Both the position numbers and the translations under genes were made by a program. From assembly GCA_947585795.1 (NCBI GenBank), contig CANPXG010000022.1, positions 1 through 37,305 of the forward strand: 37,305 bases of DNA. Direction: 5' to 3'. Under the pieces are notes generated by a model that worked only from the letters and a program-made list of their open reading frames with translations, ran no database searches and was not told the DNA's origin. Positions within the stretch are counted from its first letter, which is position 1; the number at the start of each line of letters is the position of its first letter. Shown one piece after another: positions 1-30,314 of the stretch. Origin of the DNA: an uncultured Clostridia bacterium. Lineage in GTDB: Bacteria; Bacillota; Clostridia; UBA1381.

Positions 1-590
1 TACTTAAACGCCTGATACCCGTACACCGCGAGCAGCGGAAACTGCGCGATAAGCTGCAGACACTGGCGCAGAACGTTCGGCAGGGAAATATCGTCGGCTC
101 TGTCGTCGTACGCGTACATCGTCAAAACGCTTCTCGAGAGCGCGTTCATCATGTCCTTGCTCGGTGCCTGCATGATTATGTCGCGCACGAACGAGGGCGG
201 TATTGTGCGCAGCTTCGCGAGCGTGTCGTTAAATACTTTAAGCTTTTCCGCGTTCGGGAGTTCCCCGAACAAAAGCAGATATGTAACCTCCTCAAACCCG
301 AAACGGTCGTCCTTGATAAAGCCTTTTATAAGCTCCTCAACGTCGTAGCCATGGTAGTAAAGTTTGCCGTCGCACGGCTCTGTTATGCCGTTTGGCAGGG
401 TGTTGTACGCGTGTATTTCACCGATGTCGGTAAGACCGGCGAGGACACCTTTACCGTTTATATCCCTCAGCCCCCTTTTTACGTCATACTTCGCATACAG
501 TTCAGGGTTTATAAGCTTATTTTTCTTGCAAATGTCAAGCATTTCAAGCATTTCGGGGGTGACTTCTACGGGCACAATTTTCTCTCTCAT
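1..590 (-). CDS. gltA: Citrate synthase, N-terminal part (runs off left edge)
   Basis: The minus strand is open from an ATG at 588-590 to the window edge, giving the first 196 residues. The protein starts MREKIVPVEV and contains RGLRDINGKGVLAGLTDIG, then LYYHGYDVEELIKGF and FEEVTYLLLFGELPN. These are the small-domain signatures of citrate/2-methylcitrate synthase, which condenses acetyl-CoA (or propionyl-CoA) with oxaloacetate. The catalytic His/Asp region lies in the missing C-terminal half, so citrate and methylcitrate synthase cannot be told apart. A ribosome site GGAGG lies about 8 nt before the ATG. In Clostridia this enzyme usually feeds an incomplete TCA cycle towards glutamate. The gene is divergent from the DJ-1 operon, and its leader is the unusual repeat array described separately. 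Confidence 0.88.
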   Translation of the reverse strand, partial: MREKIVPVEVTPEMLEMLDICKKNKLINPELYAKYDVKRGLRDINGKGVLAGLTDIGEIHAYNTLPNGITEPCDGKLYYHGYDVEELIKGFIKDDRFGFEEVTYLLLFGELPNAEKLKVFNDTLAKLRTIPPSFVRDIIMQAPSKDMMNALSRSVLTMYAYDDRADDISLPNVLRQCLQLIAQFPLLAVYGYQAFK

Positions 591-594
591 ACCT

Positions 595-843
595 AAATTC
601 CTCCGTTTTTTTTCATTAAAATTGCGTGTTTTTTCACCTATATTTGCGTTATTTTTCGCCTAAATTGGCGCTAAATTCACTTAAATTGGCGTTAAATTTA
701 CCTATATATGCGTGTTTTTTCACCTAAATTGACGCTAAATCCATCTATGTCAGCGTGTTTTTTCACTTATATTTATGCAAAATAACGCCTTTTTATACCT
801 ATAAAGTTAAATTTTTCACTTATTTTATCATTATATTTACCTA
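595..843 (-). repeat. Degenerate 21-22-bp tandem array filling the citrate synthase leader
   Basis: On the plus strand, successive units end in CACCTA, CGCCTA, CACTTA, TACCTA or CATCTA at positions 640, 662, 683, 704, 726, 747, 769, 801, 822 and 843. The intervals are 22, 21, 21, 22, 21, 22, 32, 21 and 21 bp. Weaker units end at 595 and 618. There are two unit flavours, one with GCGTGTTTTTTCACCTA and one with GGCGCTAAATTCACTTA. Read on the minus (mRNA) strand, a unit looks like TAGGTGAAAAAACACGC. The array lies between the predicted citrate synthase promoter and its start codon, so it should be transcribed as a leader of about 255 nt. No function is known to me. Confidence 0.85.
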
Positions 844-851
844 TTTTTATA

Positions 852-880
852 ATTATATCAGAGAACATATTTCATTACAA
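852..880 (-). promoter_or_regulatory. Predicted citrate synthase promoter
   Basis: On the minus strand, TTGTAA (875-880) and TATAAT (852-857) are 17 bp apart, with TGA directly before the -10 box (extended -10). The start point would be near 845, exactly where the repeat array begins. Confidence 0.6.
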
Positions 881-899
881 TTAAAATTATGTAAACTTA

Positions 900-928
900 T
901 TGTGAATTATTTAAATTTATGGTATAAT
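900..928 (+). promoter_or_regulatory. Predicted promoter of the DJ-1/fthC/tatD/holB operon
   Basis: TTGTGA (900-905) and TATAAT (923-928) are 17 bp apart, with an extended -10 TGG. The promoter is divergent from the citrate synthase promoter, with about 19 bp between the two -35 boxes. Confidence 0.65.
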
Positions 929-966
929 ATAGATAAGATTTTAAATTAAGGAAAGGGATGACGGAT

Positions 967-1500
967 ATGGTATACGTAATGCTCGCGGACGGATTTGAGG
1001 AAACGGAAGCGATAGAGCCGATAGATATTCTGCGTCGAGGCGGCGCAAAGGTAACTACGGTCGGAGTAAAAAATAAAACGGTGACATCAGCTCACGGGAT
1101 AACAGTGACGGCGGACGCGGATATGACGGAGGTAGAGCCCGAGGATATGGAACTTCTTATGCTGCCCGGCGGCGCGGGACATGAAATTTTGGACGCTTCA
1201 AACGAGGTGCACGCTCTCATAAGCCGCGCTTTGGCTGACGGCAAATATATAGCAGCGATATGCGCCGCGCCATCTATCATAGGCAAAAGAATGGTTTTGG
1301 AGGGAAAAAGGGCGACTTGCTTCCCCGGCTACGAAAAGTACCTTTACGGCGCGGAGGTGACGGGCGAGAAAGTCGTCACGGACGGTAAAATCATAACCGC
1401 GAAGGGCGCGGGAGCCGCGTCCGACTTCGGCTTCGCCATGCTTACCGCGCTCAAGGGCAAGGAAACCGCTGACAAAATAAAGGAGATCATGCAGTATTGA
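967..1500 (+). CDS. DJ-1/PfpI family protein
   Basis: A 177-aa DJ-1/ThiJ/PfpI-fold protein. It begins MVYVMLADGFEETEAIEP, with the family glutamate at about residue 12. The glycine-rich LMLPGGAGHE follows at 64-73, and the nucleophile elbow AICAAP places the conserved cysteine at residue 99. Members act in oxidative or carbonyl stress as deglycases, glyoxalases or chaperones, and the exact activity cannot be read from sequence. I chose the ATG at 967 rather than 958 because AAGGAAAGGG (948-957) sits about 9 nt before 967 but abuts 958. It is the first gene of a four-gene operon and overlaps fthC by 4 bp, which suggests translational coupling. Confidence 0.88.
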   Translation: MVYVMLADGFEETEAIEPIDILRRGGAKVTTVGVKNKTVTSAHGITVTADADMTEVEPEDMELLMLPGGAGHEILDASNEVHALISRALADGKYIAAICAAPSIIGKRMVLEGKRATCFPGYEKYLYGAEVTGEKVVTDGKIITAKGAGAASDFGFAMLTALKGKETADKIKEIMQY

Positions 1501-2048
1501 TTAAGGAAGAATTGCGCCTTAGGATGCGCGAAAAAAGACGCGCCCTGACAAACGACGATGTTTCACAGTTAAGCAAAGCGATACAGGATAATCTGTTTAC
1601 GCTTGACGCGCTGAGGGACGCAAAAAGCGTTTGCGTGTTTATGTCGTCGTTTAAGGAACCCGACACGACCGCGGTCATAGCCCGTCTTTTCGATGAGGGA
1701 AAGACGGTGAGCGCGCCCGTATCAGACACGGAAACGAGCACGCTCACTCTTATACGCGTCAAAAGCATGAAAGATTTTCGCAAGGGCGCATACGGCATAG
1801 CAGAGCCTTCGGGCACGGAAAAGGTCAATGACGCGGACGTTATACTCGTGCCGGGGCTGGCGTTTGACAGAAGCGGCGCACGCATGGGCTTTGGCAAAGG
1901 TTACTACGACAGGCTGCTCTCTTTGGCGAACGCGGTCAAAATAGGGCTTTGCTACGATTTTCAGCTTTTTGACGATATACCGAAGGAGGAGCACGACGCG
2001 CCGATGAATTATATAGTTACGGAAAAAGAAATTATCGATACGAATTGA
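1497..2048 (+). CDS. 5-formyltetrahydrofolate cyclo-ligase
   Basis: A 183-aa protein of normal family length. It carries the signature VPGLAFDRSGARMGFGKGYY at about 121-140 (ATP/folate site), after a basic N-terminus typical of the family. The enzyme converts 5-formyl-THF to 5,10-methenyl-THF using ATP, in the cytoplasm, and so recovers one-carbon units. It starts with TTG at 1497-1499. That codon overlaps the TGA of the DJ-1 gene (TTGA), and an AAAGGAG site lies about 11 nt upstream inside the preceding gene. The next in-frame ATG (about residue 10) would leave a truncated N-terminus. Genes of this family are often called ygfA or fthC. Confidence 0.9.
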   Translation: MIKEELRLRMREKRRALTNDDVSQLSKAIQDNLFTLDALRDAKSVCVFMSSFKEPDTTAVIARLFDEGKTVSAPVSDTETSTLTLIRVKSMKDFRKGAYGIAEPSGTEKVNDADVILVPGLAFDRSGARMGFGKGYYDRLLSLANAVKIGLCYDFQLFDDIPKEEHDAPMNYIVTEKEIIDTN

Positions 2049-2066
2049 AGGAAAAGGGTGAACGAT

Positions 2067-2852
2067 ATGTTATTTGACTCACACGCGCATTATAACGACG
2101 AGCGTTTTGACGGTGACCGCGACGAGGTTTTATCGTCAATGACGGAAAACAACGTCGGTCTTATAATGAACTCCTGCTCGTCATTGGACGAAGTACCGCT
2201 TATTTTCGACATATGCGAAAAATACCCGTTCGTTTACGCGTCGGTCGGAATACACCCGCACGAGGTCGAAAATCTGACGGAAAACGATATGACGAAGCTT
2301 ATGGAATACGCGAAAAATCCGAAGGTCAAGGCAATCGGTGAAATCGGTCTTGACTACTACTACAATTTTTCGCCGCGCGAAACGCAAAAAAAGTGGCTCG
2401 AGCGCCAAGTCGAGATAGCCAAGGAAATTCATATGCCCGTCATTATACATGACCGCGACGCGCACAAGGACTGCATGGATATTCTGCGCGATTGCTCCGT
2501 GCGCGAGGCGGGCGGCGTGTTCCACTGCTATTCGGGAAGCGTCGAAATGGCAAGGGAAATAATCGATTGGGGCATGTACATCGCCTTCGGCGGTTCTCTC
2601 ACGTTCAAAAATTCCGTGCGTCCCGTCGAGGTCGCAAAATACGCGCCGCTTGACAGGATACTGATAGAAACGGATTGCCCGTACCTCACGCCCGTGCCGC
2701 ATAGAGGCGAGCGCAACTCATCCCTTTACATTCATTACGTCGCGGAAAGGCTTGCCGAGATCAAGGGCGTTACGCCGCGTGAAATAGAAGAGGCGACGTT
2801 TGAAAACGCGAAAAAATGCTTTAACATAACTGAAGGAGAGGCGGCTTTATAA
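2067..2852 (+). CDS. tatD: TatD family metal-dependent deoxyribonuclease
   Basis: A 261-aa TIM-barrel metallohydrolase of the TatD/YcfH/YabD type. The metal-binding motifs are in order: the N-terminal HxH in MLFDSHAHYND (His6, His8), the glutamate in GEIGLDYYY, histidines in PVIIHDRDAH and FHCYSG, and the aspartate in ETDCPYLTP. The family has 3'-5' exonuclease/DNase activity in DNA repair and turnover. The ATG at 2067 is preferred over the upstream GTG at 2058, because GGAAAAGGG overlaps the GTG but lies 8 nt before the ATG. The gene is 18 bp after fthC and 2 bp before holB. A tatD-holB neighbourhood is common in Firmicutes. Confidence 0.93.
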   Translation: MLFDSHAHYNDERFDGDRDEVLSSMTENNVGLIMNSCSSLDEVPLIFDICEKYPFVYASVGIHPHEVENLTENDMTKLMEYAKNPKVKAIGEIGLDYYYNFSPRETQKKWLERQVEIAKEIHMPVIIHDRDAHKDCMDILRDCSVREAGGVFHCYSGSVEMAREIIDWGMYIAFGGSLTFKNSVRPVEVAKYAPLDRILIETDCPYLTPVPHRGERNSSLYIHYVAERLAEIKGVTPREIEEATFENAKKCFNITEGEAAL

Positions 2853-2854
2853 CA

Positions 2855-3817
2855 ATGTACGGATATGATACCTTTCACGAGGAGCTTATGCAAAGCTTAA
2901 TAAACTCCGTCCATGACGGACTCAGCTCTCACGCCTATATATTCGAGGGCGCGAAGGGCTTAGATCTCATGTCCTCGGCGCGTCTTTTCGCCGCCGCGCT
3001 CACCTGCCGCGACAGAGCTATCGCGCCTTGCGGAGCATGCCCGTCCTGCAAGGAGGCGAAGGCGGACACGAACCCCGACATCGTATACGTCAATTCGGGA
3101 GAGAAAAAGAGTATCGGCGCGGAGCAGATGCGCGCTCTCGAGGAGGACGTTGCAGTAAAGCCGTTCGCCGCCGCGCGGAAGGTGTATATAATCGAGGACG
3201 GCGCCGAGCTTACGGAGGCGGCGCAAAACGTGTTTTTAAAGACGTTCGAGGAGCCGCCCGAATACGCCGTGTTTATAATCATAATCGAAAACCTTGCGCC
3301 GCTTTTGGAAACGGTGCTTTCACGCTTCACACTCATACATTTCCCGCGCGTCAGCGACGCGAAGGTGAGAGAGTACATCAAAAGCAAGTACCCAAAGGAA
3401 ACGGACAAGCTTGATTTCCTCGTTAGGTACTGCGCCGGAATACCCGCAGAGGCGGACAAAATCGTCGGAAACGAGAGCTTTGAGGAGCTTCGCGCCTCGT
3501 CGCTCGAAACGCTCGGCGCGCTGCTTTCACAGAGCAAAGCCCACGCTTTTACCGTATCCGAATTCGCGGAGCAAAACAAGGACCGTTTCGGTGAGGCGCT
3601 TGATTTTTGGCTATCGTTCACGCGCGACATAACGCTTCTGCAAAACGGCGCGGAGGATAAAATAATAAATATCGACAAACGCTTTGAGCTTGAAAAATTG
3701 GCGGAGAGGTTTGAGCCGAAAAATGTCGTTAAGACCTCCGAAAAAATAATCAAGACTCAAAAAATGCTCGCGCGCTACGTAAATACAAGGGCTGCGGCTA
3801 TGTGGCTCGCCCTTTGA
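2855..3817 (+). CDS. holB: DNA polymerase III subunit delta'
   Basis: A 320-aa clamp-loader subunit. Four cysteines (51, 59, 62, 65) form the zinc module of the gamma/tau/delta' family. The Walker A region is degenerate (EGAKGLDLMSS, with no GKT), as expected for delta', which does not hydrolyse ATP. The conserved segment AAQNVFLKTFEEPPEYAVFI follows, then LSRF in place of the SRC motif. Delta' joins delta and tau/gamma to load the beta clamp. AAGGAGAGG ends about 14 nt before the ATG, which is rather far. It is the last gene of the operon, and no GC-rich terminator stem is visible after it. Confidence 0.92.
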   Translation: MYGYDTFHEELMQSLINSVHDGLSSHAYIFEGAKGLDLMSSARLFAAALTCRDRAIAPCGACPSCKEAKADTNPDIVYVNSGEKKSIGAEQMRALEEDVAVKPFAAARKVYIIEDGAELTEAAQNVFLKTFEEPPEYAVFIIIIENLAPLLETVLSRFTLIHFPRVSDAKVREYIKSKYPKETDKLDFLVRYCAGIPAEADKIVGNESFEELRASSLETLGALLSQSKAHAFTVSEFAEQNKDRFGEALDFWLSFTRDITLLQNGAEDKIINIDKRFELEKLAERFEPKNVVKTSEKIIKTQKMLARYVNTRAAAMWLAL

Positions 3818-3926: not shown

Positions 3927-4178
3927 ATGAAATCCGTAGGAATTGTAAGAAAGGTCGATAATCTCGGGAGAATTGTTATTCCCATAGAGCTCCGCAAAAA
4001 GTTCGATATTGAAATAGCGGATTCTATGGAAATCTATACTGACGACAATTGTATTATCCTTAAGAAATACGAGCCGTCATGTATATTTTGCGGGGATGCG
4101 AACGATATTTTCCGTTTCAACGGAAGAAATATATGCCGCAACTGCGCAAAGGCAATGATGGGATATATTAACGACTGA
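3927..4178 (+). CDS. AbrB family transcriptional regulator
   Basis: An 83-aa regulator. Residues 1-48 form the swapped-hairpin AbrB DNA-binding domain (MKSVGIVRKVDNLGRIVIP, then ELRKKF and MEIYTDDNCIILKKY), nearly identical in pattern to B. subtilis AbrB/Abh/SpoVT N-termini. The C-terminal part has two cysteine pairs, CIFC and ICRNC, which could bind one zinc ion. Such Zn-containing AbrB proteins are common in Clostridia. It probably acts as a dimer or tetramer on transition-state genes, but the targets are unknown. It is a single-gene unit with its own strong promoter and a bidirectional terminator. Confidence 0.92.
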   Translation: MKSVGIVRKVDNLGRIVIPIELRKKFDIEIADSMEIYTDDNCIILKKYEPSCIFCGDANDIFRFNGRNICRNCAKAMMGYIND

Positions 4179-4180
4179 CA

Positions 4181-4223
4181 AAAACCGCCCGCGCTGTCAT
4201 AGACAGCGCGGGCGGTTTTTTTT
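4181..4223. terminator. Bidirectional intrinsic terminator, abrB / coaX
   Basis: A perfect 14-bp stem: CCGCCCGCGCTGTC (4185-4198), loop ATA, GACAGCGCGGGCGG (4202-4215). It has eight T on the plus side and A residues on the left, so it can stop both converging transcripts. The coaX stop codon overlaps its T-run. Confidence 0.95.
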
Positions 4224-4983
4224 ACACGTTTTTACCGTATATTATCATAAGTCCTTTGAGAAGGAGCTCGTCGTCGAGTATTATCTCGTTTTTGCAAAGA
4301 GGCACGACGGATGAGGCAAGTCCGCCCGTCGCGACGACGGTCATCTCCCCCATCTCGCCGCGTATACGGTCGATAATTCCGTCCATGCTCGCGGCTGCGC
4401 CGTAGAGTATACCGTTTTGCATACAGTCGACCGTGTTTGTGCCTATAAGCTTTTTCGGCGGATCGAGGCTTATTTTCGGAAGCTGCGCGGCGGAGCTTAT
4501 CATGGCGTTCATAGATACCATGATCCCCGGCATTATCATGCCGCCCAAGTACTCGCCCGCGCCGTTTATGACCGATACGGTCGTCGCCGTTCCCATGTCG
4601 AATATGATAAGCGGCGCGCCGTAACACTCTATTCCCGCGACGGCATCGACCGCAAGGTCGCTGCCAAGGTGGTCGGGATCGTCCGTTTTTACGCAAAGTC
4701 CCGTCTTGACACCGCGCCCCACAACCATCGGGGAGAGCGACGTAAGCTTTTTCACCGCCGCGTAGACCGCGTCCGTTACGGAGGGCACGACGGACGAGAT
4801 GATAGCGCCGTCTATGCTCTCTTTTTTGATTTCGTGTATGTCGAGCGCCGCCCGAAGCTCTATCGCGTACTCCAACTGCGTGGCGTTATGGTCGGTGGTA
4901 AGGCGCTCCATGAAGAGGACGCTGTTTTTTTCACAGCAGCCTATAACTATATTGGTATTTCCTATATCTATCGCAAGTATCAT
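4222..4983 (-). CDS. coaX: Type III pantothenate kinase
   Basis: A 253-aa protein starting MILAIDIGNTNIVIG, with the ASKHA-fold phosphate motif DxGNT at 6-10. It also has the pantothenate motif DDPDHLGSDLAVDAVAG, the adenosine motif FDMGTATTVSVI, and GGMIMPGI. CoaX phosphorylates pantothenate in the first step of coenzyme A synthesis and needs a monovalent cation. AGGAGGG lies 7 nt before the ATG. The gene is 15 bp downstream of the PHP gene on the same strand and is probably co-transcribed from the promoter at 5690-5718. Confidence 0.95.
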   Translation of the reverse strand: MILAIDIGNTNIVIGCCEKNSVLFMERLTTDHNATQLEYAIELRAALDIHEIKKESIDGAIISSVVPSVTDAVYAAVKKLTSLSPMVVGRGVKTGLCVKTDDPDHLGSDLAVDAVAGIECYGAPLIIFDMGTATTVSVINGAGEYLGGMIMPGIMVSMNAMISSAAQLPKISLDPPKKLIGTNTVDCMQNGILYGAAASMDGIIDRIRGEMGEMTVVATGGLASSVVPLCKNEIILDDELLLKGLMIIYGKNV

Positions 4984-4998
4984 TGTTTTTCCCTCCTG

Positions 4999-5640
4999 TT
5001 ACGGCATCGGTATGCCGAGTCTTTGTAAAAGTTCGTTCGCGGCGCGTATCTGTTTTTTGCGGTACTCCGCGAGGCTGTGGGTGTCGGAGCCGACGCTTAC
5101 GCATATGCCGCCGTCACGCACGGCGCGCTGCTTTTTCTCGTTCGTGAGAAAGTCGTAGTAGTACGGGTAATTCCCGGAGGTGTTTAGTTCCCAGAAAATG
5201 TCGTTATCGCGCATTAGGCGTATCATGTCAAGCACGTATCTCTCGCCGAGCTTGAAAATGTCCGTGTGGGCAAGTCCGACCTTGCAGGTGAATAAGCGCC
5301 GCCATTCAAGAAATTCGTAAAGGTCCATCGCGCGCGCGTCGTCAAGGCTTTCAAAAAGCACGTAGTCAAAGCGGCTCGTAGCCTTGGGCAGGGCCTCGGG
5401 CGGCGCGGGACGCGTGCCTATTTCAAGTCCGCACAGTACGCGTATTTTGTCGGCGTATTTTATTTTGCAGTGCTGTATGTATTCGTAATATGTCGGTAGG
5501 TTTTCGCCTATCGTAAACTGGTGGTCGGTTATGCCTATCACGCTCACGCCGCAGTTTATCGCGTTTTCTATTATCGCGTCGGGCGTGTCGGAACCGTCGT
5601 AGCTGAATATTGTGTGGTTGTGCAGATCCGTGATGTACAT
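4999..5640 (-). CDS. PHP-domain phosphoesterase (histidinol-phosphatase-like)
   Basis: A 213-aa protein opening MYITDLHNHTIFSYDGSD, the HxH...D metal motif of PHP phosphoesterases. Further ligand candidates are ITDHQF, the glutamate of CGLEIG, GLAHTDIF, and GSDTHSLAEY near the C-terminus. The substrate is unknown. It could be histidinol phosphate, another phosphomonoester or a nucleotide, and no his genes are nearby. The frame stays open up to 5718, but AAAGGAGA 8 nt before 5640 and the family start MYIxDLHxHT place the start at 5640. It is first in a unit with coaX. Confidence 0.87.
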   Translation of the reverse strand: MYITDLHNHTIFSYDGSDTPDAIIENAINCGVSVIGITDHQFTIGENLPTYYEYIQHCKIKYADKIRVLCGLEIGTRPAPPEALPKATSRFDYVLFESLDDARAMDLYEFLEWRRLFTCKVGLAHTDIFKLGERYVLDMIRLMRDNDIFWELNTSGNYPYYYDFLTNEKKQRAVRDGGICVSVGSDTHSLAEYRKKQIRAANELLQRLGIPMP

Positions 5641-6448: not shown

Positions 6449-7717
6449 TTATATTTCTTTGGTTTTTTCTATCTTTTCCGTGCTTACGGTAGGTCCGTGG
6501 TGGCGCGTAGGCTCCCACTGCACGTTCTTGAATATCGCGACTACCGAAATGGGCGCGTAGGTGAAAAGGAATACGGGGAAGGTGAAAAGGTATTTCACTT
6601 TCTTCCACTTGCTCGTGTGGATGCGTTTGTTCTCGGTGAGCGTCGTCACAAGTCCTATCAGGAACATCATTACATACGCGCCGGCTACCCATTGCGCGAG
6701 CGATATTAAAAGCGGCAGACAGTTTTCGCCCATTATCGCTCCCGCGATCAGCGCCGCGGCGTTTATGCAGAGTATAAAAAGCGTTATGAATATCGACGGT
6801 AAAATCGTCATGCACATGTCGTAGCAGGTGGATCTGTTTTTGCGAAACATGTTGCCGATGAGCTTCGCGCCGTACTTTCCGAATACCTGTAAAAATCCGC
6901 GCGCCCATCTTAGGCGCTGCGTCCATGACTGTCTGAACGTCTGCGGCTGCTCGTCGTATAGTATCGCGTCGGAGCAGAAGGCTATCTTCTCCCCCGCCAT
7001 CGCGTTAGCTATGGAAAATTCTATGTCCTCGGTGAGGAGGAAGTACTTCCAGCCTCCCGCGTTATTTACAATGTCCTTATGCACCAAAAATCCCGTGCCC
7101 GATATGGCGCAGCCCGTGCCCAAAAGCATGCGCGAATGGTTTAAAAACTTAGACTCCCTTATATACCAAAGCGCGTAGCCCGCCGTTATCCAGTTCGTGC
7201 CGTAATTCGTTGAGTTTCTGTAGCTCGTGATTATCCTGTGACCGTCGGAAAACGTCCTGTTCATGGCGCTTATATAATTTCTGTCGAGGATGTTGTCCGC
7301 GTCAAAGACGAAAAATCCGTCGTAAAAATCCTTGCCCTTCTCGCTCGTTATTTTATTTAGGGCGTAATCGAGGGCGTAGCCCTTGCCAAGCTTCTCCATG
7401 TCGTTGCGCACGAACACGAACGCGCCCGCCTTGCGCGCCTCCTCGGCGGTGTTATCGGTACAGTTGTCGGCTATGACGTATATGTCTATAAGCTCCTGAG
7501 GATAGTCCTGATGGTGAATGGAATTGACGAGCGTCGCTATCACATTCTCCTCGTTGCGCGCGGAAATCAGCGCCGCGAACCTATGCGGCACCTCCTCCTT
7601 GTGCGGCTTATCCTTTTTCAGAAAAGGTATAAAAAAGTATACGAGTTGATAAAAGTACAGCGCAAAAAAGAGTACGCCGACAATTAAATCAATATCTTTA
7701 ACCGTTTCTATAATCAT
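6449..7717 (-). CDS. Processive family 2 glycosyltransferase, membrane-bound
   Basis: A 422-aa enzyme. One N-terminal membrane segment (about 9-33) precedes a cytoplasmic GT-A domain with ISARNEENVI, DNCTDNTAE, the metal-binding DAD in FVFDADNILD, TEDIEFS (catalytic base) and QRLRWARGF (the Q/RxxRW motif of processive enzymes). About three C-terminal membrane segments follow. This arrangement resembles poly-N-acetylglucosamine, hyaluronan and cellulose synthases and points to synthesis and export of an envelope polysaccharide. The sugar is not predictable. The open frame continues to 7786, but GAAGGGGAA about 7 nt before 7717 and loss of similarity upstream favour this start. It has no partner synthesis genes here. 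Confidence 0.86.
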   Translation of the reverse strand: MIIETVKDIDLIVGVLFFALYFYQLVYFFIPFLKKDKPHKEEVPHRFAALISARNEENVIATLVNSIHHQDYPQELIDIYVIADNCTDNTAEEARKAGAFVFVRNDMEKLGKGYALDYALNKITSEKGKDFYDGFFVFDADNILDRNYISAMNRTFSDGHRIITSYRNSTNYGTNWITAGYALWYIRESKFLNHSRMLLGTGCAISGTGFLVHKDIVNNAGGWKYFLLTEDIEFSIANAMAGEKIAFCSDAILYDEQPQTFRQSWTQRLRWARGFLQVFGKYGAKLIGNMFRKNRSTCYDMCMTILPSIFITLFILCINAAALIAGAIMGENCLPLLISLAQWVAGAYVMMFLIGLVTTLTENKRIHTSKWKKVKYLFTFPVFLFTYAPISVVAIFKNVQWEPTRHHGPTVSTEKIEKTKEI

Positions 7718-8381: not shown

Positions 8382-10715
8382 ATGAATTTATGTTCAAGGT
8401 GTAAGAAAAACCCCGCGGTTTTTTACATCACAAAAATGGAGGGCAACAAGACCAGCAGCGAAGGTCTTTGTTTGTCGTGCGCAAAGGAAATGGGCATAGC
8501 TCCTTTAAATAAAATGATCGAGAATTTCGGTGTTTCCGACGACGAGCTTAACATGCTCAACTCGCAAATGTCGGATTTTATGGAAAGTCTTGAAAATATG
8601 GAAGATATGGACGAGGACGCGATGGAGATGATGTCGCGCCTGTCGGGCGGCGAGGACGACGAGGGCGGCGCGGCGACGGCTCCTCTCGACATATTTAAAA
8701 ACTTCTTCGCCGGCGCTCCGCAAAGCGGTCAAAACGACGAGGGAACGACCAAGTCGAAGGAAAAGAAGCAGAAGAAAAAGCAGAAAAAGACCATGCTTGG
8801 CACCTACGGCACAAATCTCACGGAAAAAGCCGCCGAGGGTAAAGTCGACAGAGTAGTGAGCAGGGACGCGGAAATCGAGCGCGTAATTCAGATTTTGAAC
8901 CGTCGCTCAAAGAACAATCCCGTGCTTCTCGGTGAGCCCGGCGTGGGTAAAACGGCTGTCGCGGAGGGGCTTGCCTGCAGGATATTCGAGCAAAGCGTGC
9001 CTCCGAAGCTGTTCGGGTACCAGCTTTACCTCTTGGACTTCGCCGCGCTTGTCGCGGGAACTCAGTTTAGAGGTCAGTTTGAGGCGCGTCTTAAGGGCGT
9101 TTTAAACGAGGCTGCCGAAAGAGGAAACGTCATACTCGTAATAGACGAGATACACAACATCGTCGCCGCCGGTGACGCGGAGGGCGCGATGAGCGCCGCA
9201 AATATCCTAAAGCCGGCTCTCGCGCGCGGAGAAATACAGATAATCGGCGCGACGACGCTCACGGAGTACCGCAAGCATATCGAAAAGGACAGCGCGCTCG
9301 AAAGGCGTTTTCAGCCCGTTATAATCGATGAGCCGTCCATAGACGAGAGCATAGATATATTAAACGGTATAAAGGACTATTACGAGAATTACCATAAGGT
9401 AAAAATATCGGATGACACGATAGAGCAGGCGGTCAGAATGTCGGAACGCTACATCACCGACCGCTTCCTCCCCGACAAGGCGATAGACGTTATCGACGAG
9501 GCGGGCTCAAGGGTGAACCTTCGCAACAAGGCGCTTTACAACGTTAAGGTGCTCGAGGGCAGGCTCGACGTGCTTGACGCGGATATGGCTGTCGCTCAGG
9601 AAAACGGTGATTTTGAAAAGCTTGCCAATCTGCGCGTTGAGAAGATAAATACCGAAAACGAAATCGCGAAAGCCGCCGCCGAGGCGGAGAAGGCGGAAAT
9701 CACGTTCGACGACATAGCCGCCGTTATAGAAAGCTGGACGAAAATACCCGTGCACCGCCTTACGGAGAGCGAAACGGATAAGCTTTTGAATTTGGAAAGC
9801 CGCATACACAAGCGCGTTATCGGTCAGGATGAGGCGGTCAGGGCGGTCGCGCGCGCGATACGGCGCGGCAGAGCCGATATTACGACGCGCAAGCGTCCCG
9901 TATCGTTCATATTCGCCGGTCCCACGGGCGTGGGTAAAACGGAGCTTGTAAAGACTATCGCGGAGGTAATGTTCGACAACGAGGAGGCGCTTATCCGTAT
10001 AGATATGTCGGAGTACATGGAAAAACATTCGGTGTCGAAGCTTATCGGCTCGCCCCCGGGCTACGTCGGCTACGACGACGCGGGACAGCTTACCGAAAAG
10101 GTGCGCAGAAAGCCGTATTCGGTAATACTGCTCGACGAGATAGAAAAGGCGCACCCGGAGGTGTTTAACCTGTTTCTGCAAATCCTCGACGACGGACGTA
10201 TCGCGGACAGTCACGGTAAGATAATAAATTTCGAGAACACGATAATAATAATGACGACGAACGCCGGCTCGGAGTTTAAAACGTCCGCCGCGGGATTTAA
10301 TATCAGCGACGAAAAACGAAGTGAGGACAACGTTGACAAGAGCCTCAAGCAGTTCTTTAAGCCCGAATTTCTTAACAGAATCGACGAGATAGTAACGTTT
10401 AAGCCGCTTACGGACGATAATTTGCGCGATATTATCGACCTGTTGCTCAAGGATATTGTGGCGAAGCTTGATGAAAAGCACGCGAAAATATTCGTTACAG
10501 ACGCGGCGAAGAATCTTATACTCGAAAAGGGCACCGATAAAAAGTACGGTGCAAGACCGCTTAAACGCGCCATTCAGAAGCTTTTGGAGGATAAGCTGGC
10601 GATGCTGTCCCTTAAGGGTGCTGTAACCGAAGGCTGCGTCATCACAGCCGACCGCGCGGGAGATGAAATTTCGCTGACGGTGAAGAGTATCTTTGAGAAG
10701 GCAGCCGATTTGTAA
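8382..10715 (+). CDS. clpE: ClpE-like AAA+ Clp protease ATPase with N-terminal zinc finger
   Basis: A 777-aa class I Clp/Hsp100 unfoldase. An N-terminal C4 zinc finger (Cys4, Cys7, Cys30, Cys33), as in ClpE, replaces the usual Clp_N repeats. An acidic linker (about 45-95) and a lysine-rich stretch around 123-137 follow. The first AAA+ domain has GEPGVGKT (about 184) and [10 protein letters not shown] short UVR/coiled-coil middle lies near 395-430. The second AAA+ domain has GPTGVGKT (about 513) and [11 protein letters not shown]. The ClpP-docking loop reads AGF after [13 protein letters not shown], where ClpC/ClpE have VGF and ClpA has IGL. It should unfold damaged proteins for ClpP, which is not in the window. 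AAAGGGAACC precedes the ATG. Confidence 0.87.
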
Positions 10716-12682: not shown

Positions 12683-15325
12683 TTATTTTATTTGTTCGAT
12701 TACGATATCGTCGACGGCGGCGAGTGCGTCGTCGATTTTGTTTGCTTCGGTGCCGCCGCCCTGTGCCATGTCGGGCTTGCCGCCGCCGCGTCCGCCGGCT
12801 ATGGCGGTGATCTCCTTTATGATTTTTCCGCAGTGAACGCCCTTTTCCACAGCCTCCTTCGACGCCATGGCGATGAACGTGATCTTGCCCATATTTTCGG
12901 AGCCTATAACAACAAGTGAATTCTTGTTTCTCGCCTTGATATTATCAGCCAACTTGCGCATTTCGTTTACGTCGATATTGTCGCGCTGAACGATAGCCGC
13001 GCGTATATCGCCTATATGTCTTATGCTCGCCATAAGGTCGCTTGCCGCCGCTGCAGCCAGTTTGTCCTTAAACTCTTCTATCTTCCTGCCGAGCTCGCCG
13101 CGCTCGTCCATAAGCGCCGCGGCTTTTACGTCTATTTCGTTCGTAAGGTGCGTTTTGAGCGCCGACGCGGTCCTCTCTATAAGCGCGTCCTTTGAGGCGA
13201 TGTAGTCAAGCACGCCCTGTCCCGTGACAGCCTCTATACGTCTTACGCCGGCAGCAACGCCGCTTTCCGACGTGATCTTGAACAGACCGCACTGCGCGGT
13301 GTTCGTAAGGTGCGTGCCGCCGCAAAATTCTATGCTGTAATCGCCCATCGACACTACTCTTACAACGTCGCCGTACTTTTCGCCGAACTGTGCCGTCGCG
13401 CCGAGTCCTCTCGCCTCGTCTATCGGAAGCTCACGAACGTTTATGTCGAGCGCGGCAAGTATCGCGTCGTTCACTTTTCTTTCCGTTTCCTTTATCTCCT
13501 CCGCCGTCATCGCCTCGAAGTGCGAAAAGTCAAAACGAAGATGCGACGCGTCGACAAGTGAGCCTGCCTGCGCGACGTGCTCGCCCAGCGTTTCCTTCAA
13601 AGCCTTGTGCAGAAGGTGCGTCGCGCTGTGGTTCCTCGATATGGCAAGTCTGTTCTTTCTGTCCACCGACAGCGTCACCGTGTCGCCGACGCTTATCGGG
13701 GTATCTGCCAAAAGTGTTTCGTGCATGTAATAGCCGTCGGCGGTTTTTGTCGTGTTCAAAACCTCGCCCGCTTTTTTGCCGTTTACGTAAATAGCGCCTA
13801 TATCGCCCGTCTGTCCGCCCATTTCGGCGTAAAACGGCGTTTTGTCGGTCACTATAAAACCCTTGTCGAGAGCACCGAGCGCGTCCTTCGAGCCCTCGCC
13901 CTCTACCGCGGTTCCCGTTACCTTCGCCTCCGCCTCGAGAGTGCCGTAACCCACAAACTCCGTGGGCGCGGCGTTCTCAAACACGTACACGTCGTCACCG
14001 TCCCAGCTTGAGCCGTCCTCGCGTGCGCTTCGCGCCGTTTCCTTTTGAGCGCGCATAGCCTCGTTAAAGCCGTCGATATCGACCTCCAAGCCCTGCTCCT
14101 GCGCCATTTCTACCGTTAAATCAAGCGGGAAGCCGTAGGTGTCGTGAAGCTTAAACGCCTGCTCGCCCGTGAGCGATTTTTTATTATCGTTCTTCGCTTC
14201 CTCAATGTAAGACGTGAGCACCGATATACCGTTGTCTATAGTCGCGTCAAAGCGCTCCTCTTCCTTCTCGATGATTTTCTTTATATAGCTTCTCTTTTCC
14301 TCAAGCTCGGGGTACGCGTCCTTCGAGCAGTTAATAACCGTGTCCGCAACCTCGTACAAAAACGGGCGGTCGATATTTAAGAGCTTGCCGTGGCGCGCCG
14401 CGCGTCTTAAAAGGCGGCGAAGCACGTATCCCCTGCCCTCGTTCGACGGTATAACGCCGTCCGATACCATCATTACGGTACTCCTTATATGGTCGGTTAT
14501 AACGCGCAAGGAAACGTCGTTCTTTTCATTGTTTTTGTACTCGATACCGGCTATGCGCGATATGTGCTTCATAACGTCCTGCACGGTATCGACCTCGAAA
14601 AGGTTATCCACGCCCTGCATAACGACCGCAAGTCTTTCAAGTCCCATGCCCGTGTCGATATTGGGGTTCGGAAGCGGGTCATAGTTGCCGTCGTCGTCCT
14701 TGTCAAACTGCGTGAACACGAGGTTCCATACCTCCATGTACCTGTCACAGTCACAGCCCACGCCGCACGTCGGCTTGCCGCATCCGTATTCCTCGCCGCG
14801 ATCGTAGTAAATCTCGCTGCACGGACCGCACGGACCTGTTCCGTGCTCCCAAAAGTTATCGTCCTTGCCAAGCTTCACGATGCGCGACGCGTCAACGCCG
14901 ACCTCGTTTATCCATATATCCTTAGCCTCGTCGTCCTCCTCGTAAATCGACACCCAAAGGCGCTCCTCGGGTATTTCCATTACCTTCGTAAAAAACTCCC
15001 ACGCCCACGCTGTCGCTTCTCTTTTAAAGTAATCGCCGAAAGAGAAGTTTCCCAGCATCTCAAAAAACGTGCCGTGGCGCGCGGTCTTGCCCACGTTTTC
15101 TATATCGCCCGTTCTGATACATTTCTGACACGTCGTGACGCGCCTTCTCGGGGCGGTTTCGGGGCTTTGGAACCATGCCTTCATCGGCGCCATGCCGGAA
15201 TTTATCAAAAGCAGGCTCGCGTCGTTCTTCGGCACGAGTGGGAAGCTGTCAAGCCTTAAACATCCCTTCGATTCAAAAAAGCTGAGAAATTTCTCGCGGA
15301 TCTCATTTACACCCATTGATTTCAT
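12683..15325 (-). CDS. alaS: Alanyl-tRNA synthetase
   Basis: An 880-aa full-length enzyme. The class II catalytic core has SFPLVPKNDASLLLINSGMA, TTCQKCIRTGDIENVG, RHGTFFEMLGNFSFGDYF and NIDTGMGLERL. The tRNA-binding region and the editing domain follow, with HSATHLLHKAL (HxxxH) and CGGTHL zinc ligands. The C-Ala domain ends with GGRGGGKPDMAQGGG. It charges tRNA-Ala and clears mischarged Ser/Gly. AAGGAG lies 12 nt before the ATG; an in-frame ATG three codons later is further from it. The short leader has no room for a T-box. Confidence 0.97.
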   Translation of the reverse strand: MKSMGVNEIREKFLSFFESKGCLRLDSFPLVPKNDASLLLINSGMAPMKAWFQSPETAPRRRVTTCQKCIRTGDIENVGKTARHGTFFEMLGNFSFGDYFKREATAWAWEFFTKVMEIPEERLWVSIYEEDDEAKDIWINEVGVDASRIVKLGKDDNFWEHGTGPCGPCSEIYYDRGEEYGCGKPTCGVGCDCDRYMEVWNLVFTQFDKDDDGNYDPLPNPNIDTGMGLERLAVVMQGVDNLFEVDTVQDVMKHISRIAGIEYKNNEKNDVSLRVITDHIRSTVMMVSDGVIPSNEGRGYVLRRLLRRAARHGKLLNIDRPFLYEVADTVINCSKDAYPELEEKRSYIKKIIEKEEERFDATIDNGISVLTSYIEEAKNDNKKSLTGEQAFKLHDTYGFPLDLTVEMAQEQGLEVDIDGFNEAMRAQKETARSAREDGSSWDGDDVYVFENAAPTEFVGYGTLEAEAKVTGTAVEGEGSKDALGALDKGFIVTDKTPFYAEMGGQTGDIGAIYVNGKKAGEVLNTTKTADGYYMHETLLADTPISVGDTVTLSVDRKNRLAISRNHSATHLLHKALKETLGEHVAQAGSLVDASHLRFDFSHFEAMTAEEIKETERKVNDAILAALDINVRELPIDEARGLGATAQFGEKYGDVVRVVSMGDYSIEFCGGTHLTNTAQCGLFKITSESGVAAGVRRIEAVTGQGVLDYIASKDALIERTASALKTHLTNEIDVKAAALMDERGELGRKIEEFKDKLAAAAASDLMASIRHIGDIRAAIVQRDNIDVNEMRKLADNIKARNKNSLVVIGSENMGKITFIAMASKEAVEKGVHCGKIIKEITAIAGGRGGGKPDMAQGGGTEANKIDDALAAVDDIVIEQIK

Positions 15326-15368
15326 AACTGATGCAATCTCCTTTTTTCTAAACTGTTCCTATCCTGTT

Positions 15369-15397
15369 ATTATATAAAAAATACCATGCCGTGTCAA
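15369..15397 (-). promoter_or_regulatory. Consensus alaS promoter
   Basis: On the minus strand, TTGACA (15392-15397) and TATAAT (15369-15374) are 17 bp apart, both perfect. It is one of the few promoters here without a TG before the -10 box. Confidence 0.85.
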
Positions 15398-15476
15398 GTG
15401 CCGCAAGGTCAATATGTATTGAAAAGTTAAAATGTGCGCGCTTATTTTGCGTATAAATTTTGTGTAAATTTACCGT

Positions 15477-15505
15477 TTGAAAAACGGCAAAGCGCGTGTT
15501 AAAAT
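15477..15505 (+). promoter_or_regulatory. Predicted MATE gene promoter
   Basis: TTGAAA (15477-15482) and TAAAAT (15500-15505) are 17 bp apart with an extended -10 TGT. Transcription should start near 15512, upstream of the leader terminator. Confidence 0.7.
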
Positions 15506-15524
15506 ATAAATACATCGTGTAGCG

Positions 15525-15572
15525 AAACGGCGCGTAAATCCGGATGGATTTTACGTGTCGTTTTATTTTTTT
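15525..15572 (+). terminator. Leader terminator (putative attenuator) before the MATE gene
   Basis: A 17-bp stem: AAACGGCGCGTAAATCC (15525-15541), loop GGAT, then GGATTTTACGTGTCGTTT (15546-15563). It has one bulged T and two G-U pairs, and is followed by TATTTTTTTG. It lies between the promoter and the ribosome site AAAGGAG (15581-15587), so it must be bypassed for expression. No riboswitch aptamer or anti-terminator was recognised in the 13 nt before it. Confidence 0.7.
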
Positions 15573-15595
15573 GCACAATGAAAGGAGAACAAATA

Positions 15596-17029
15596 ATGGA
15601 ACAATCAAATTATCTCGCAACGGAAAAGGTCGGAACGCTTATGAGGAAATACGCCGTTCCGTGTATTATATCGCTGCTCGTCGCGGCGCTTTACAATATC
15701 GTCGACCAGATATTCATAGCCAACGCCGACTATCTCGGCTCTTACGGAAACGCCGCAAACACCGTCGTGTTCCCGCTTACGGTTATCGCGCTCGCGATAG
15801 CGGTAATGATAGGCGACGGCTGCTGCGCGTTCGTGAGTTTGTGCCTGGGCAGACAGAACAAAGGCGACGCGGAAAAGAGTATCGGAAACTCGGTCGTTTT
15901 GTCCGTTGTAAGCGGCATAGCGCTGTGCGCCGTTTACCTGATATTCCAAAACGCGATAGTCACCGCGTTCGGCGGCACGGTCAACGCTGAAACGTTTGAA
16001 TATTCAAAGGAATATTTTTTCTACATCACGCTCGGTATACCGTTTTATATGTTCGGTCAGGCGATGAACCCCGTCATGCGCTCCGACGGCAGCCCGAAGT
16101 TCGCGATGGTGTCGACGCTCGCCGGCGCGGTCATAAATATTATACTCGACCCGATTTTTATATTCATATTTAAATGGGGAATGATGGGCGCGGCTGTCGC
16201 GACGGCCGCGGGACAGATCGTGACTGCCGCGCTCGCGGTGTGGTACCTCGTTCACACAAAATCCGTAAAGCTCAAAAAACGCAGCTTTAAACTCAGCATA
16301 CGCGTGATAGGCAAAATAATACCCTTGGGAATTTGCAGTTTTCTGTCGCAAATCTCGCTCGTCGCGGCAATGGCGGCGATAAACAACATGATAAGAAAAT
16401 ACGGCGCGCTCGACGAGGTTTTTTCACAGACGCAGTACGCGCAGATACCTATGGCTGTCGTGGGGATAGTGATGAAATTCTTCCAAATCGTAATATCGGT
16501 CGTTGTCGGTATGGCGGCGGGCTGTATACCGATAGTCGGCTTTAACATGGGCGCGGGCGAAAAGGCGAGAGTGAAAAAGCTGTTTACCATGCTGCTCGTG
16601 TGTGAAGCGGCTGTCGGTGCGGTCGCGCTTCTTGTAGCCGAATTTTGTCCGCGACAGCTTATCATGGTATTCGGCGCGGCAAACGAGAGCGCGTACTACA
16701 CCGATTTCGCGGTAAAGGCGTTTCGGATATATCTTTGCATGATGATTTTCGCGTGCGTAAACAAAGCCGCGTTTATATTCCTGCAAGCTATGGGTAAAGC
16801 GGTCGCTTCAACAATGCTCTCAATGGTGAGAGAAATCGTTTTCGGTGTGGGCTTCGCGCTGCTTCTGCCGGTATATTTCGGACTTGACGGTGTGCTGTAT
16901 TCGATGCCGGTGTCGGATATACTGACGTTTGCGATTTCAGCCGCGGTAATTATGGTGACGTACCGCGAACTCGCGGAAAACGGGGGCGGTGAGGAAAAAA
17001 TACTTGCCGCAAATAAAATTTATTCTTGA
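15596..17029 (+). CDS. MATE family multidrug/cation efflux transporter
   Basis: A 477-aa inner-membrane protein of about 12 helices. It begins MEQSNYLATEKVGTLMRKYA and continues VPCIISLLVAALYNIVDQIF, the characteristic DinF/NorM-like start. The two MATE halves are seen as FPLTVIALAIAVMIGDG and, in the second half, VVGMAAGCIPIVGFNMGAG. These transporters export cationic drugs or metabolites by Na+ or H+ antiport, and the substrate is unknown. The frame is open from an ATG at 15578, but AAAGGAG (15581-15587) lies inside that extension and 8 nt before 15596. A leader terminator suggests controlled expression. The next gene's promoter overlaps its stop codon. Confidence 0.92.
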   Translation: MEQSNYLATEKVGTLMRKYAVPCIISLLVAALYNIVDQIFIANADYLGSYGNAANTVVFPLTVIALAIAVMIGDGCCAFVSLCLGRQNKGDAEKSIGNSVVLSVVSGIALCAVYLIFQNAIVTAFGGTVNAETFEYSKEYFFYITLGIPFYMFGQAMNPVMRSDGSPKFAMVSTLAGAVINIILDPIFIFIFKWGMMGAAVATAAGQIVTAALAVWYLVHTKSVKLKKRSFKLSIRVIGKIIPLGICSFLSQISLVAAMAAINNMIRKYGALDEVFSQTQYAQIPMAVVGIVMKFFQIVISVVVGMAAGCIPIVGFNMGAGEKARVKKLFTMLLVCEAAVGAVALLVAEFCPRQLIMVFGAANESAYYTDFAVKAFRIYLCMMIFACVNKAAFIFLQAMGKAVASTMLSMVREIVFGVGFALLLPVYFGLDGVLYSMPVSDILTFAISAAVIMVTYRELAENGGGEEKILAANKIYS

Positions 17030-26655: not shown

Positions 26656-26688
26656 AGTCAGCTACTCCTTAAATAACAGTGTTTTACA

Positions 26689-26698
26689 CCCCCCCCCC
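26689..26698 (-). repeat. Ten-base homopolymer (G10 on the coding strand) in the adhesin leader
   Basis: C10 on the plus strand, hence G10 in the adhesin transcript. It lies about 30-40 nt after the predicted start point and about 34 nt before the ATG. Long G/C runs are prone to slippage, so both true variation and sequencing error are possible. Confidence 0.9.
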
Positions 26699-26735
26699 GA
26701 TTTTTCGCGGACGGGTTTTATTGTAAGTTGTAGCA

Positions 26736-27947: not shown

Positions 27948-30314
27948 GTGAGTAACCGAACCGAATTACGGCGTTTCGCGGCGCTTGTTTTAAGCGCGGT
28001 TTTGTTGCTGTGCCCTATGTTCCCCGTGCGCGCGGAAGCCGACTTTATGTGGGGCGATACGAGCTTTGACGGCGGCGTGTTTTCCGCGTCCGTATCGGAC
28101 GCGGCTGACGGTCAATCGCTCATTTTGGCAGTGTATTTTGAAAATCGGCTCGTCGGCGTAAGTATCGGTGATGATTTTGCGGAAGTGTCGGTCGATACTT
28201 CGGTCGATACGGCAAAGCTGTTTTTGTGGGATATGGAAAATATGTCACCCGCGTGCGGCGTGCTGTCAACGCTTACGCGTGAGGATGTGCCGACGGTGTC
28301 GCCGGCGGTTACGGTGTCGCCGACACCCGAACCTACGCCGGAGCCGACACCCGAGCCGACACTTGAACCTACTCCTACACCAAGTCCCACGCCAAGTCCT
28401 ACAGTGTCGCCAAGTCCGACACCTTCGCCAACTCCGACAGTGTCGCCTACAACAACGCCAACTCCGACACCTACTCCTACACCTACTCCTACACCGGAGC
28501 CGACTCCCTCGCCCACGCCGAATATTGACACGTCGGGTGAGCCGAAGGACTTGGAGGTGCTTCAGTCCGCCAATGACGCGGCGATCGATGAGCTTGCGAA
28601 GCTGCCGTCGTACGACGGGCGCAAGTACGGCATTGTAACGCCAATCAGAACTCAAAACGGCAATATTTGTTGGGCGTACTCCGTTACGGGTGCGGCGGAA
28701 ATAAATATTTTGCGTAAGGGTATTGACGCGGACGCGTCAGCCGACACGCTTCATTTTAACGAGCAGCATCTCGCCAACGCCTTCTTAAATCCCGCCATCG
28801 ATCCCTTGGGCAACAATCTGCCCGATTACAGTGATTCCTTTGTCGGCTGGTACTCGGGTGCCGGAACGCACGATGCCGTTTACGCGATGCTTCGCTGGAG
28901 CGCACCCGCGCTTTCGTCCGAGTCGAACGAGGCGCGAATAAGTAAGCCCGCGTATATTCTTGAAAACGCGGTTAATGTCCCCAACAGCAAAAACGGCATA
29001 GACGCGTTAAAGCGCGCGATCGTCAAATACGGCGGCGTGGCGGTATGCTGGGATTGCGGCAACGGCGGAACACGCTACTACTATAACAACAACGGCTACG
29101 TCGGCAACGGGCACGCGAGCGTTATAGTCGGCTGGAACGACAACACGAATAAAGACTGGTTTTGCTTTGACGATATACCCAATCCCGCTACGCGCGACGG
29201 CGCGTGGATCTTGAAAAACAGTTGGGGTAAAAGTTACGGCGCGAACGGCTACTATTACGTGTCGTATGATGTTCCGCTGTCTGCATGCTTCGCTCTCGAT
29301 ATGTGTATGCCCGATACGTACGATAACAGCTATCACTACGATACCGCCGTGACAAGAAGCTCAAGCTGGTCGCTCGATTCCGGTACGCGCGGTGCGGCGA
29401 TGTTTGAGGCGAGAACGGCGTTTGCCGACAGGCGTGAATATATTACGGGCGTGAATGTGGCTGTGAACGAGGGCAGTAATTATAAGATAAAAGTAAAAAT
29501 TTACAAAAATCCAAGCGCGGATTTTACCGATATATACAGTGAGAAAAACGATCCCGAATCGGGTGAGCTTGTCGCCGTGGCAGAGTCGGATACGCTTGCG
29601 TACCCCGGAGCGTACACGGTGAGGCTCGACGAGCCCGTTGAATTGGAGCAAAATCAGGTGTTCAGCGCGGTCGCGGAGCTCACAAACGGTGCAAAAATAC
29701 GCGTTGTGACCGAGTACGAAAAACCCGACGGTAAATATCCCGCCAACGATATGACCTTCTCAAATTCCGGCGGCGGTTGGACAAATACGCGTTTGAAAGG
29801 ATCGCACGTCGCTCAAATCAAGGTGTTCACGAAAAACGAAACCGTTCCCGATGAGGAGTATGGGGGTAAGTCGCTCAAATACGCGGATGTTCGTTTTGAC
29901 CGCCGCACCGTGCCGTATGACTGGGAAAATGCGGCGCACCCCGAGCTCACCGTGTATTTTGACGGTAAGGAGCTTGTCGAGGGTGATGATTATACGGTGG
30001 AGTATCCCGATACCAAGGGTTTGGGACGGTATACGGCGACCGTTACGGGCGCGGGTGAATACGAGGGGACGCGTGAGATAGATTATGCCGTCAGGAAAGC
30101 AAGTGCGCCGCCGAATAAACCGGATAGGTACATGTACTTCACGGAAAATTACGCAACCTACAATGATATTCCGCTGCCCGAAAACTGGGTTTGGGGTGAA
30201 CCGAATGCGGCATTCGTTTCGGGACGAACCACATGGGTAATATACAAAGGCGACGATGCGGATTGCTATGAAAACTATATGGCGGACATTTCTGTCACAA
30301 TAAAAAATGAATAA
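27948..30314 (+). CDS. Secreted papain-like (C1A) cysteine protease with Pro/Thr linker
   Basis: A 788-aa protein. A signal peptide (about 1-27, cleaved near VRAEA) and a short N-terminal domain precede a Thr-Pro-rich linker (about 118-195). The C1A protease domain has Gln and Cys241 in [12 protein letters not shown], His389 in [10 protein letters not shown] and Asn424 in [21 protein letters not shown] beta-rich domain (about 465-630) and an Ig-like module (about 640-720, YTVEY...TGAGEYEGT) follow. There is no sorting signal, so it is probably released or wall-associated. The start is GTG with GGGAGGGGG upstream; the ATG codons further in would remove the signal peptide. Its substrate is unknown, and the neighbouring adhesin could be matured by it, which is speculation. 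Confidence 0.9.
28300..28530 (+). repeat. Pro/Thr-coding low-complexity repeats in the C1 peptidase gene
   Basis: Six-base and twelve-base repeats of the ACTCCTACA / CCGACACCC type encode [14 protein letters not shown] and SPTPSPT. They form a flexible linker, and their number probably varies between strains. Confidence 0.85.

Follow-up and report, generated by a model that had tools for sequence, protein, structure and literature searches.

The window analysed here, a stretch of 37,305 nucleotides from an uncultured Clostridia bacterium, opens within a gene which, following the first-pass annotation, we take to be citrate synthase (gltA), and the leader of this gene is occupied throughout by degenerate repeats spaced at about two turns of the DNA helix. 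The question raised by this locus is whether such an array is an element of citrate synthase, working as curved DNA or as an RNA platform, or whether it belongs to something more general. The analysis indicated that the gltA leader array is one worn member of a dispersed array family, and not a citrate synthase element. The reading favoured below, to which a probability of just under one half (about 0.48) was assigned, is that the family consists of phased A-tract arrays with fast turnover, whose effect, if they have one, would come from DNA shape.

The array in the gltA leader

The analysis recovered twelve units, ten of them clear and two weak (Table 1). From the gene towards the promoter, their spacings are 24, 21, 22, 21, 21, 22, 21, 22, 32, 21 and 21 bp, of which the last nine are exactly the nine numbers given in the first-pass annotation. 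In a comparison with 1000 dinucleotide shuffles of positions 591-846, the mean self-match at lags 21, 22, 43, 64 and 86 was 0.474 (shuffle maximum 0.363) and the AAA/TTT periodogram peaked with a height of 28.8 at 10.75 bp (shuffle maximum 17.1), while the TRF score was 182 against a maximum of 74 in a separate second set of 1000 shuffles. A microsatellite with identical copies was discarded, the copies matching each other at only 71-72%, as was a CRISPR array, the unit being degenerate and lacking a constant repeat with variable spacers. A coding role was also rejected, since stops occur within the sense units (by eye).

Table 1. Features at the gltA end of the window, in window coordinates
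Feature	Position	Strand	Remark
Citrate synthase gene (presumed)	1..590	(-)	start codon 590-588; extends beyond window edge
Phased array, gltA leader (C22)	595..843	(-)	ten clear and two weak units
Clear unit starts	843, 822, 801, 769, 747, 726, 704, 683, 662, 640	(-)	
Weak unit starts	619, 595	(-)	
Ribosome-binding site GGAGG	600..604	(-)	within last weak unit
Array core, seven units	620..769	(-)	compared with G015 by eye
Three-turn unit, 32 bp	770..801	(-)	compared with congeners by eye
Predicted gltA promoter TTGTAA-17-TATAAT	852..880	(-)	similar stretch in congeners, by eye
Predicted divergent promoter TTGTGA-17-TATAAT	900..928	(+)	serves gene 958-1500

The predicted gltA promoter stops 9 bases ahead of the first unit, so that the array begins at about the predicted transcription start, and it reaches the start codon, as had been proposed. 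The divergent promoter precedes a gene presumably of the DJ-1/PfpI-like type, and the stretch between the two promoters (852-928; AATTCACAATAAGTTTACATAATTTTAATTG), which appeared well conserved in the genus by eye, is possibly a regulator site. Elsewhere in the window, a run of about ten C residues upstream of a T-rich stretch (~26688-26700) represents a possible slippage site, and 12-, 18- and 24-bp tandem repeats are clustered at 28319-28495.

A protein related to the product of this gene was found in 60 of the 61 genomes of the order (own genome included), and leaders were read by eye at 14 loci of the genus (L003-L016); for a fifteenth congener (G008) only a second, more distant citrate synthase was obtained, and it was left out of the comparison. 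In the closest relative, G015, whose protein is 97% identical across the 196 residues compared, the leader has kept the promoter together with the 32-bp unit and the weak units near the promoter, with about one core unit against seven in the window (all by eye), and the leader region is 130 bp shorter (240 vs 370, a comparison of lengths only, in which the MAFFT alignment was not used). The remaining thirteen congeners (L004-L016) have gltA leaders of about 60-150 bases in which no array was seen by eye. The lack of an array in relatives had been named beforehand as evidence against the original proposal, and it was found in these thirteen, G015 having kept part of the array. Regulation specific to gltA was set aside for lack of conservation before gltA in the thirteen congeners, and the description of the array as a citrate synthase element was abandoned both on this ground and because similar arrays adjoin unrelated genes. 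Within the 32-bp unit, the GGCG..CATAAATATAA part looks like a stretch found in the leaders of G015 and other congeners (by eye), a likeness suggesting that the unit is probably an older leader stretch, predating the array core, rather than a phase step introduced for gltA.

A dispersed family of phased arrays

When the bacterium's own genome was searched by BLAST and with a pattern, more arrays came to light that share core and period with that of gltA. Scanning of a 400-kb own sample (20 stretches, that of C2 chosen for a known hit) with TRF and the AAA/TTT periodogram revealed C3, C14, C16 and C17, the last of which had earlier given a weak hit, and a sequence-only profile built from 23 units of seven arrays revealed eight arrays beyond its training set (C1, C20, C27, C47, C50, C51, C67, C80). 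C10, one of ten further places retrieved after the profile search, had no phased region and was dropped, and the profile match at C2:39503 lies ~0.6 kb from a phased region (C2b). In total, 17 further arrays of the same kind were measured, making eighteen with that of gltA (191-951 bp as trimmed by the author). Both the genome, a draft (86.5% complete, 130 contigs), and most of the named congeners, assembled from metagenomes, may carry errors in array length; since the units are degenerate, arrays invented by assembly are unlikely.

At E up to 0.1, the profile gave 71 matches here and 0 or 1 per genome in 15 congeners, the counts resting on the best 150 first-look candidates of each genome. 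At E up to 0.001, there were 26 matches in the own genome and none in 69 other genomes of the taxonomic family, with 91 candidates scored per genome under stricter filters. Moreover, the motif pattern matched 19 times in the own genome and in none of 390 other genomes of the class, its reversed control giving 0 matches in the own genome and 2 elsewhere. Judged from sequence, the array family appears to be confined, among the genomes searched, to this uncultured gut bacterium; because profile and pattern were derived from this genome, the restriction concerns the sequence family and not phased arrays generally. A viral origin was rejected: the pattern was present in 32 IMG/VR stretches, once in each, which was taken as chance.

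In the T-rich orientation, the common unit reads T5-6 (C)ACC NN TTTTG NNNN and comprises two half-units, each of about one helical turn (by eye). Its T5-6(C)ACC part reads GGTG-A5-6 on the minus strand of the gltA units, which are degenerate, as first described, but less free in sequence than was claimed, this motif being common to other arrays of the genome. Periodogram peaks fell at 10.65-10.95 bp in 18 of 18 arrays; in the gltA copy, A/T runs are sparser and the peak still lies at 10.70-10.75 bp. Of 399 spacings between the ends of T4+ runs, which are not independent because higher-order units recur within arrays, 377 fell at 9-13 (244), 20-23 (114), 31-33 (12) or 41-43 bp (7), the others being distributed over 5-8 (11), 14-19 (3), 24-30 (3), 34-40 (0) and higher values (5).

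Among TRF rows, those of the family (score at least 120, arrays assigned by position) had periods of 43, 64, 85-87, 107-109, 129 and 139 bp, near whole turns of 10.7 bp. In 17 of 18 rows the period lay within 0.2 turn of a whole number, the exception being the gltA edge (56 bp, 5.2 turns). Sixteen other tandem arrays in the same DNA include periods of 199, 69, 59, 103 and 145 bp, equal to 18.6, 6.5, 5.5, 9.6 and 13.6 turns, and also some near whole turns (42, 54, 64 and 33 bp). C14 gave no row at that score, and its stretch 1360-1620 shows hardly any tandem structure (best row 31 bp x 2.1). Adjoining the longest phased array, on L071 (G000:C88), are tandem arrays of 199 bp x 6.9 (3966-5321, 81% matches) and 69 bp x 9.4 (6600-7251, 89-90% matches), both about half G+C and not of whole turn number. 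A degenerate array at L096 2769-3555 (G000:C14), with 64- and 53-bp periods, is likewise about half G+C and lacks regular A-tracts.

A phase scan in 160-bp windows found nine regions in the 400-kb own sample, all at 10.4-11.1 bp (eight in 380 kb once the C2 stretch is set aside), and none in the shuffled sample. In G015, 13 regions were found in 493 kb, eight of them in this band; four other congeners gave one region in 268 kb, and 80 Clostridia gltA loci, 13 of them from congeners, gave five in 487 kb, one in band. Lag-correlation z was 16.4, 5.2, 0.4 and -0.5 in these four sets, respectively. Strict masking of the phased regions (3.3% of the own sample) lowered the own z from 16.4 to 1.8, a value reached by 6 of 100 shuffles, and left 0.3 in G015; phase is therefore not a chromosome-wide property, and a residue outside the arrays seen at first look was gone under the stricter masking.

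Phasing of the tracts should give the DNA a strong curvature. Bend was predicted with a wedge model over 107 bp at the model twist, using parameters that are reportedly those of Bolshoy et al. 1991. The maxima of the 18 arrays ranged from 150 (gltA) to 287 degrees (C24), and 15 exceeded the congener maximum (181 degrees in 268 kb); C22 (gltA), C14 (169) and C2b (167) lay below it yet in the congener top 0.1%. For the gltA array the bend prediction called for in the first-pass annotation gave a double result, a value at the 99.9th percentile of the congeners and the weakest bend of the family. Across the whole family, A/T runs recur at the helical period and the predicted bend exceeds the genomic background, as in phased A-tract curved DNA, and the earlier suggestion of DNA curvature gained support in this way.

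The arrays lie mostly in gaps between genes (called by longest ORF, with neighbours named from Pfam), and no common function was apparent among their neighbours. These are cyclophilin and MCRA (C50), Mfd and rotamase (C51), integrase and Cthe_2159 (C80), RNase R and RlmL (C1), QueA and GH2 (C27), rhamnogalacturonan lyase and amidotransferase (C20), polysaccharide deacetylase and RACo (C47), WhiA and a CofD-like protein (C24), BirA and MreB (C14), amidase and AraA (C17), S8 peptidase and QPRTase (C3), ECF-S and arabinofuranosidase (C6), GH43 and histidine kinase (C2), a periplasmic binding protein (C16, right), an ABC transporter (C67, left) and tRNA-Arg (C88, left); Pfam gave no match for the ORF to the right of C67 or for the one closest to C16 on the left. 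An ORF likewise unmatched in Pfam overlaps C2b, which was omitted from the orientation count.

Five orthologous sites were identified by comparing the flanks of 17 arrays with a 504-kb part of G015, which at these sites has no array, a shorter one or another sequence in its place. At the C1 site, RNase R is followed by a phased array (10.8 bp) unlike that of the own genome in sequence, and RlmL is not the next gene. The C27 site holds a G+C-rich tandem repeat with a trace of T-tracts (L261, ~8660-8950), adjoining the orthologue of queA, beside which a phased array lies in the own genome. The flanks of C3 are ~110 bp apart in G015 vs ~244; no array is found beside AraA at the C17 site, where the left neighbour differs, and only the right flank of C2 could be aligned, with no array next to it. 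The G015 sample is significantly phased yet without profile or pattern matches to the motif family, and part of its phase comes from coding DNA, with contributions from the lysine-rich terminus of RNase R and from a second ORF with internal repeats. In both species the last part of the RNase R gene overlaps the array (L237, ~2820-3170; L250, 16550-16950), which there encodes a lysine-rich tail that differs in sequence between the two. In the G015 region L106, repeats of about seven residues (KND/KNG) occupy an ORF whose DNA is phased at 10.7 bp (15300-15600), and a short TTTTTTCACC stretch is present.

Shape, descent, binding or RNA

Under the favoured reading, arrays would grow by in-register tandem duplication, as the higher-order units of 43, 85-87, 107-109, 129 and 139 bp suggest, and would turn over fast. 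The property kept, if any, would be the curved shape; by favouring the ends of plectonemes, or an architectural protein, it would contribute to local nucleoid organisation. The gltA copy would have become part of a leader, any effect on gltA being secondary. Several points count against a role of shape: in-register duplication from one founder could carry the helical period without selection, the array sites are not conserved between species, phase is confined to the arrays, indels give no sign of selection, the gltA copy is the least bent and the HU copy number is ordinary.

The chief rival, possible though with the odds against it, is a neutral satellite, in which a founder with a T-tract every turn would have spread across the genome and its copies would lengthen and shorten by slippage and unequal exchange, the period being inherited and not selected. 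Such descent is consistent with higher-order units that are multiples of the basic unit, with the (C)ACC common to the arrays after T-runs, with the continuation of the C1 array into a gene, with the G015 sites that have no array or a shorter one, and with the other tandem arrays of the genome, which often are not whole turns (199, 69, 59, 103 bp). Moreover, indels gave no sign of selection: the indel/mismatch ratio (weighted 0.21 in the family vs 0.32 in other tandem arrays; medians 0.22 vs 0.15) fails to separate the two groups, and the selection on phase originally suggested is not proven. However, a neutral satellite would need a route of dispersal, and G015 has a differently sequenced phased array at one orthologous site together with significant phase lacking profile or pattern matches, while C14 1360-1620 is phased yet barely tandem. 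A more novel reading, a dispersed satellite evolved in one lineage with shape itself under selection, comprising tens of superhelical arrays with one tract per turn and a sequence that is free while phase holds, was considered unlikely; such arrays between genes would anchor the ends of plectonemes or recruit an architectural protein of their own.

It is rather improbable that the arrays serve a sequence-specific protein that recognises T5-6(C)ACC from a single side of the helix and binds every two turns. ACC follows 17 of 76 T4+ runs in C2, C3, C14, C16 and C17, and 5 of 32 once C2 is removed, against a masked background of at most 2.8%, and C is enriched at +2 to +4 past T-runs; ACC after T-runs is consistent with common descent or with a binding protein. 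However, the motif is degenerate, the neighbouring genes are unrelated and no candidate protein emerged. Extra copies of HU or AbrB-type proteins were rejected as the cause, HU being present once, a number common to 14 of the 16 genomes of the genus (the own among them), and the AbrB-type domain twice (genus range 1-4). When spacers were scrambled and T-runs kept, 70-79 of 153 array pairs were still similar vs 102 in the real arrays, with a maximum of 100-142 bits vs 193; similarity across arrays is mostly reproduced by phased T-runs and was not accepted as proof of common descent.

An RNA-level element, in which an A-rich leader with repeated GGTGAAAAA would serve as a ribosome standby site or protein platform, is very improbable, even though C22 and C16, both leader arrays, have an A-rich sense strand, a bias that is strong in six of the eight arrays in co-directional gaps (weak in C17, absent within the trimmed C3; AAA/TTT counts in these gaps of 120/0, 35/0, 48/3, 51/7, 115/16, 83/4, 30/23 and 59/44), and C22, C16, C1 and C27 extend to a likely ribosome-binding site (by eye): C2 and C80 each separate a pair of convergent genes that both match Pfam, C6 lies between divergent genes, upstream of promoter-like sites (by eye), a helical period has no evident meaning in single-stranded RNA, no Rfam family matched window 1-3000 at E up to 1, and the gltA leader folds weakly (z -1.96). 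The UAGGUGA said to be carried by each unit did not hold up either, AGGTGA being intact in two of the ten gltA units.

Comparison with known systems

In E. coli, A/T runs phased with the helix are largely intergenic, have an intergenic period of 11.3 +/- 0.4 bp and were tied by the authors to curvature, nucleoid structure or transcription (PMC3940949, PMC516772). A-tract periodicity and its possible nucleoid role are established topics (PMC3940949, PMC516772, PMC7537859, PMC4060949), the physiological role of phased A-tracts being called unclear in one (PMC3940949) and core periodic motifs being argued in another not to impart bending (PMC7537859). No description of a dispersed phased-array family, or of repeats before citrate synthase, was found among the open-access literature matches listed. 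The bacterial role of phased A-tracts is unsettled, and the many long, well-phased arrays, together with a close relative without arrays at several of the same sites, constitute a natural experiment. Each array lends itself to tests of bending, supercoiling and binding, and selection on phase could be distinguished from neutral growth.

Bacterial minisatellites and VNTR loci are tandem intergenic repeats with higher-order units, which the present arrays resemble in all three respects, while differing from them in a spacing quantised by helical turns and in a unit common to many loci. The repeats of the Mannheimia leukotoxin promoter are likewise tandem units with A-tracts in helical phase, limited to some lineages; they are perfect repeats at one promoter, whereas 18 loci, degenerate units and many intergenic positions are involved here (PMC2697988). 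Prokaryotic chromosomal A-tract periodicity (10-11 bp; PMC3940949, PMC516772) shares the A/T runs in helical phase, but it is a statistical property of many regions spread along the chromosome, whereas masking lowered z here from 16.4 to 1.8, and the arrays of this bacterium are discrete, dense and built on a shared motif, with a period of ~10.7 bp vs 11.3 +/- 0.4 bp in E. coli intergenic regions.
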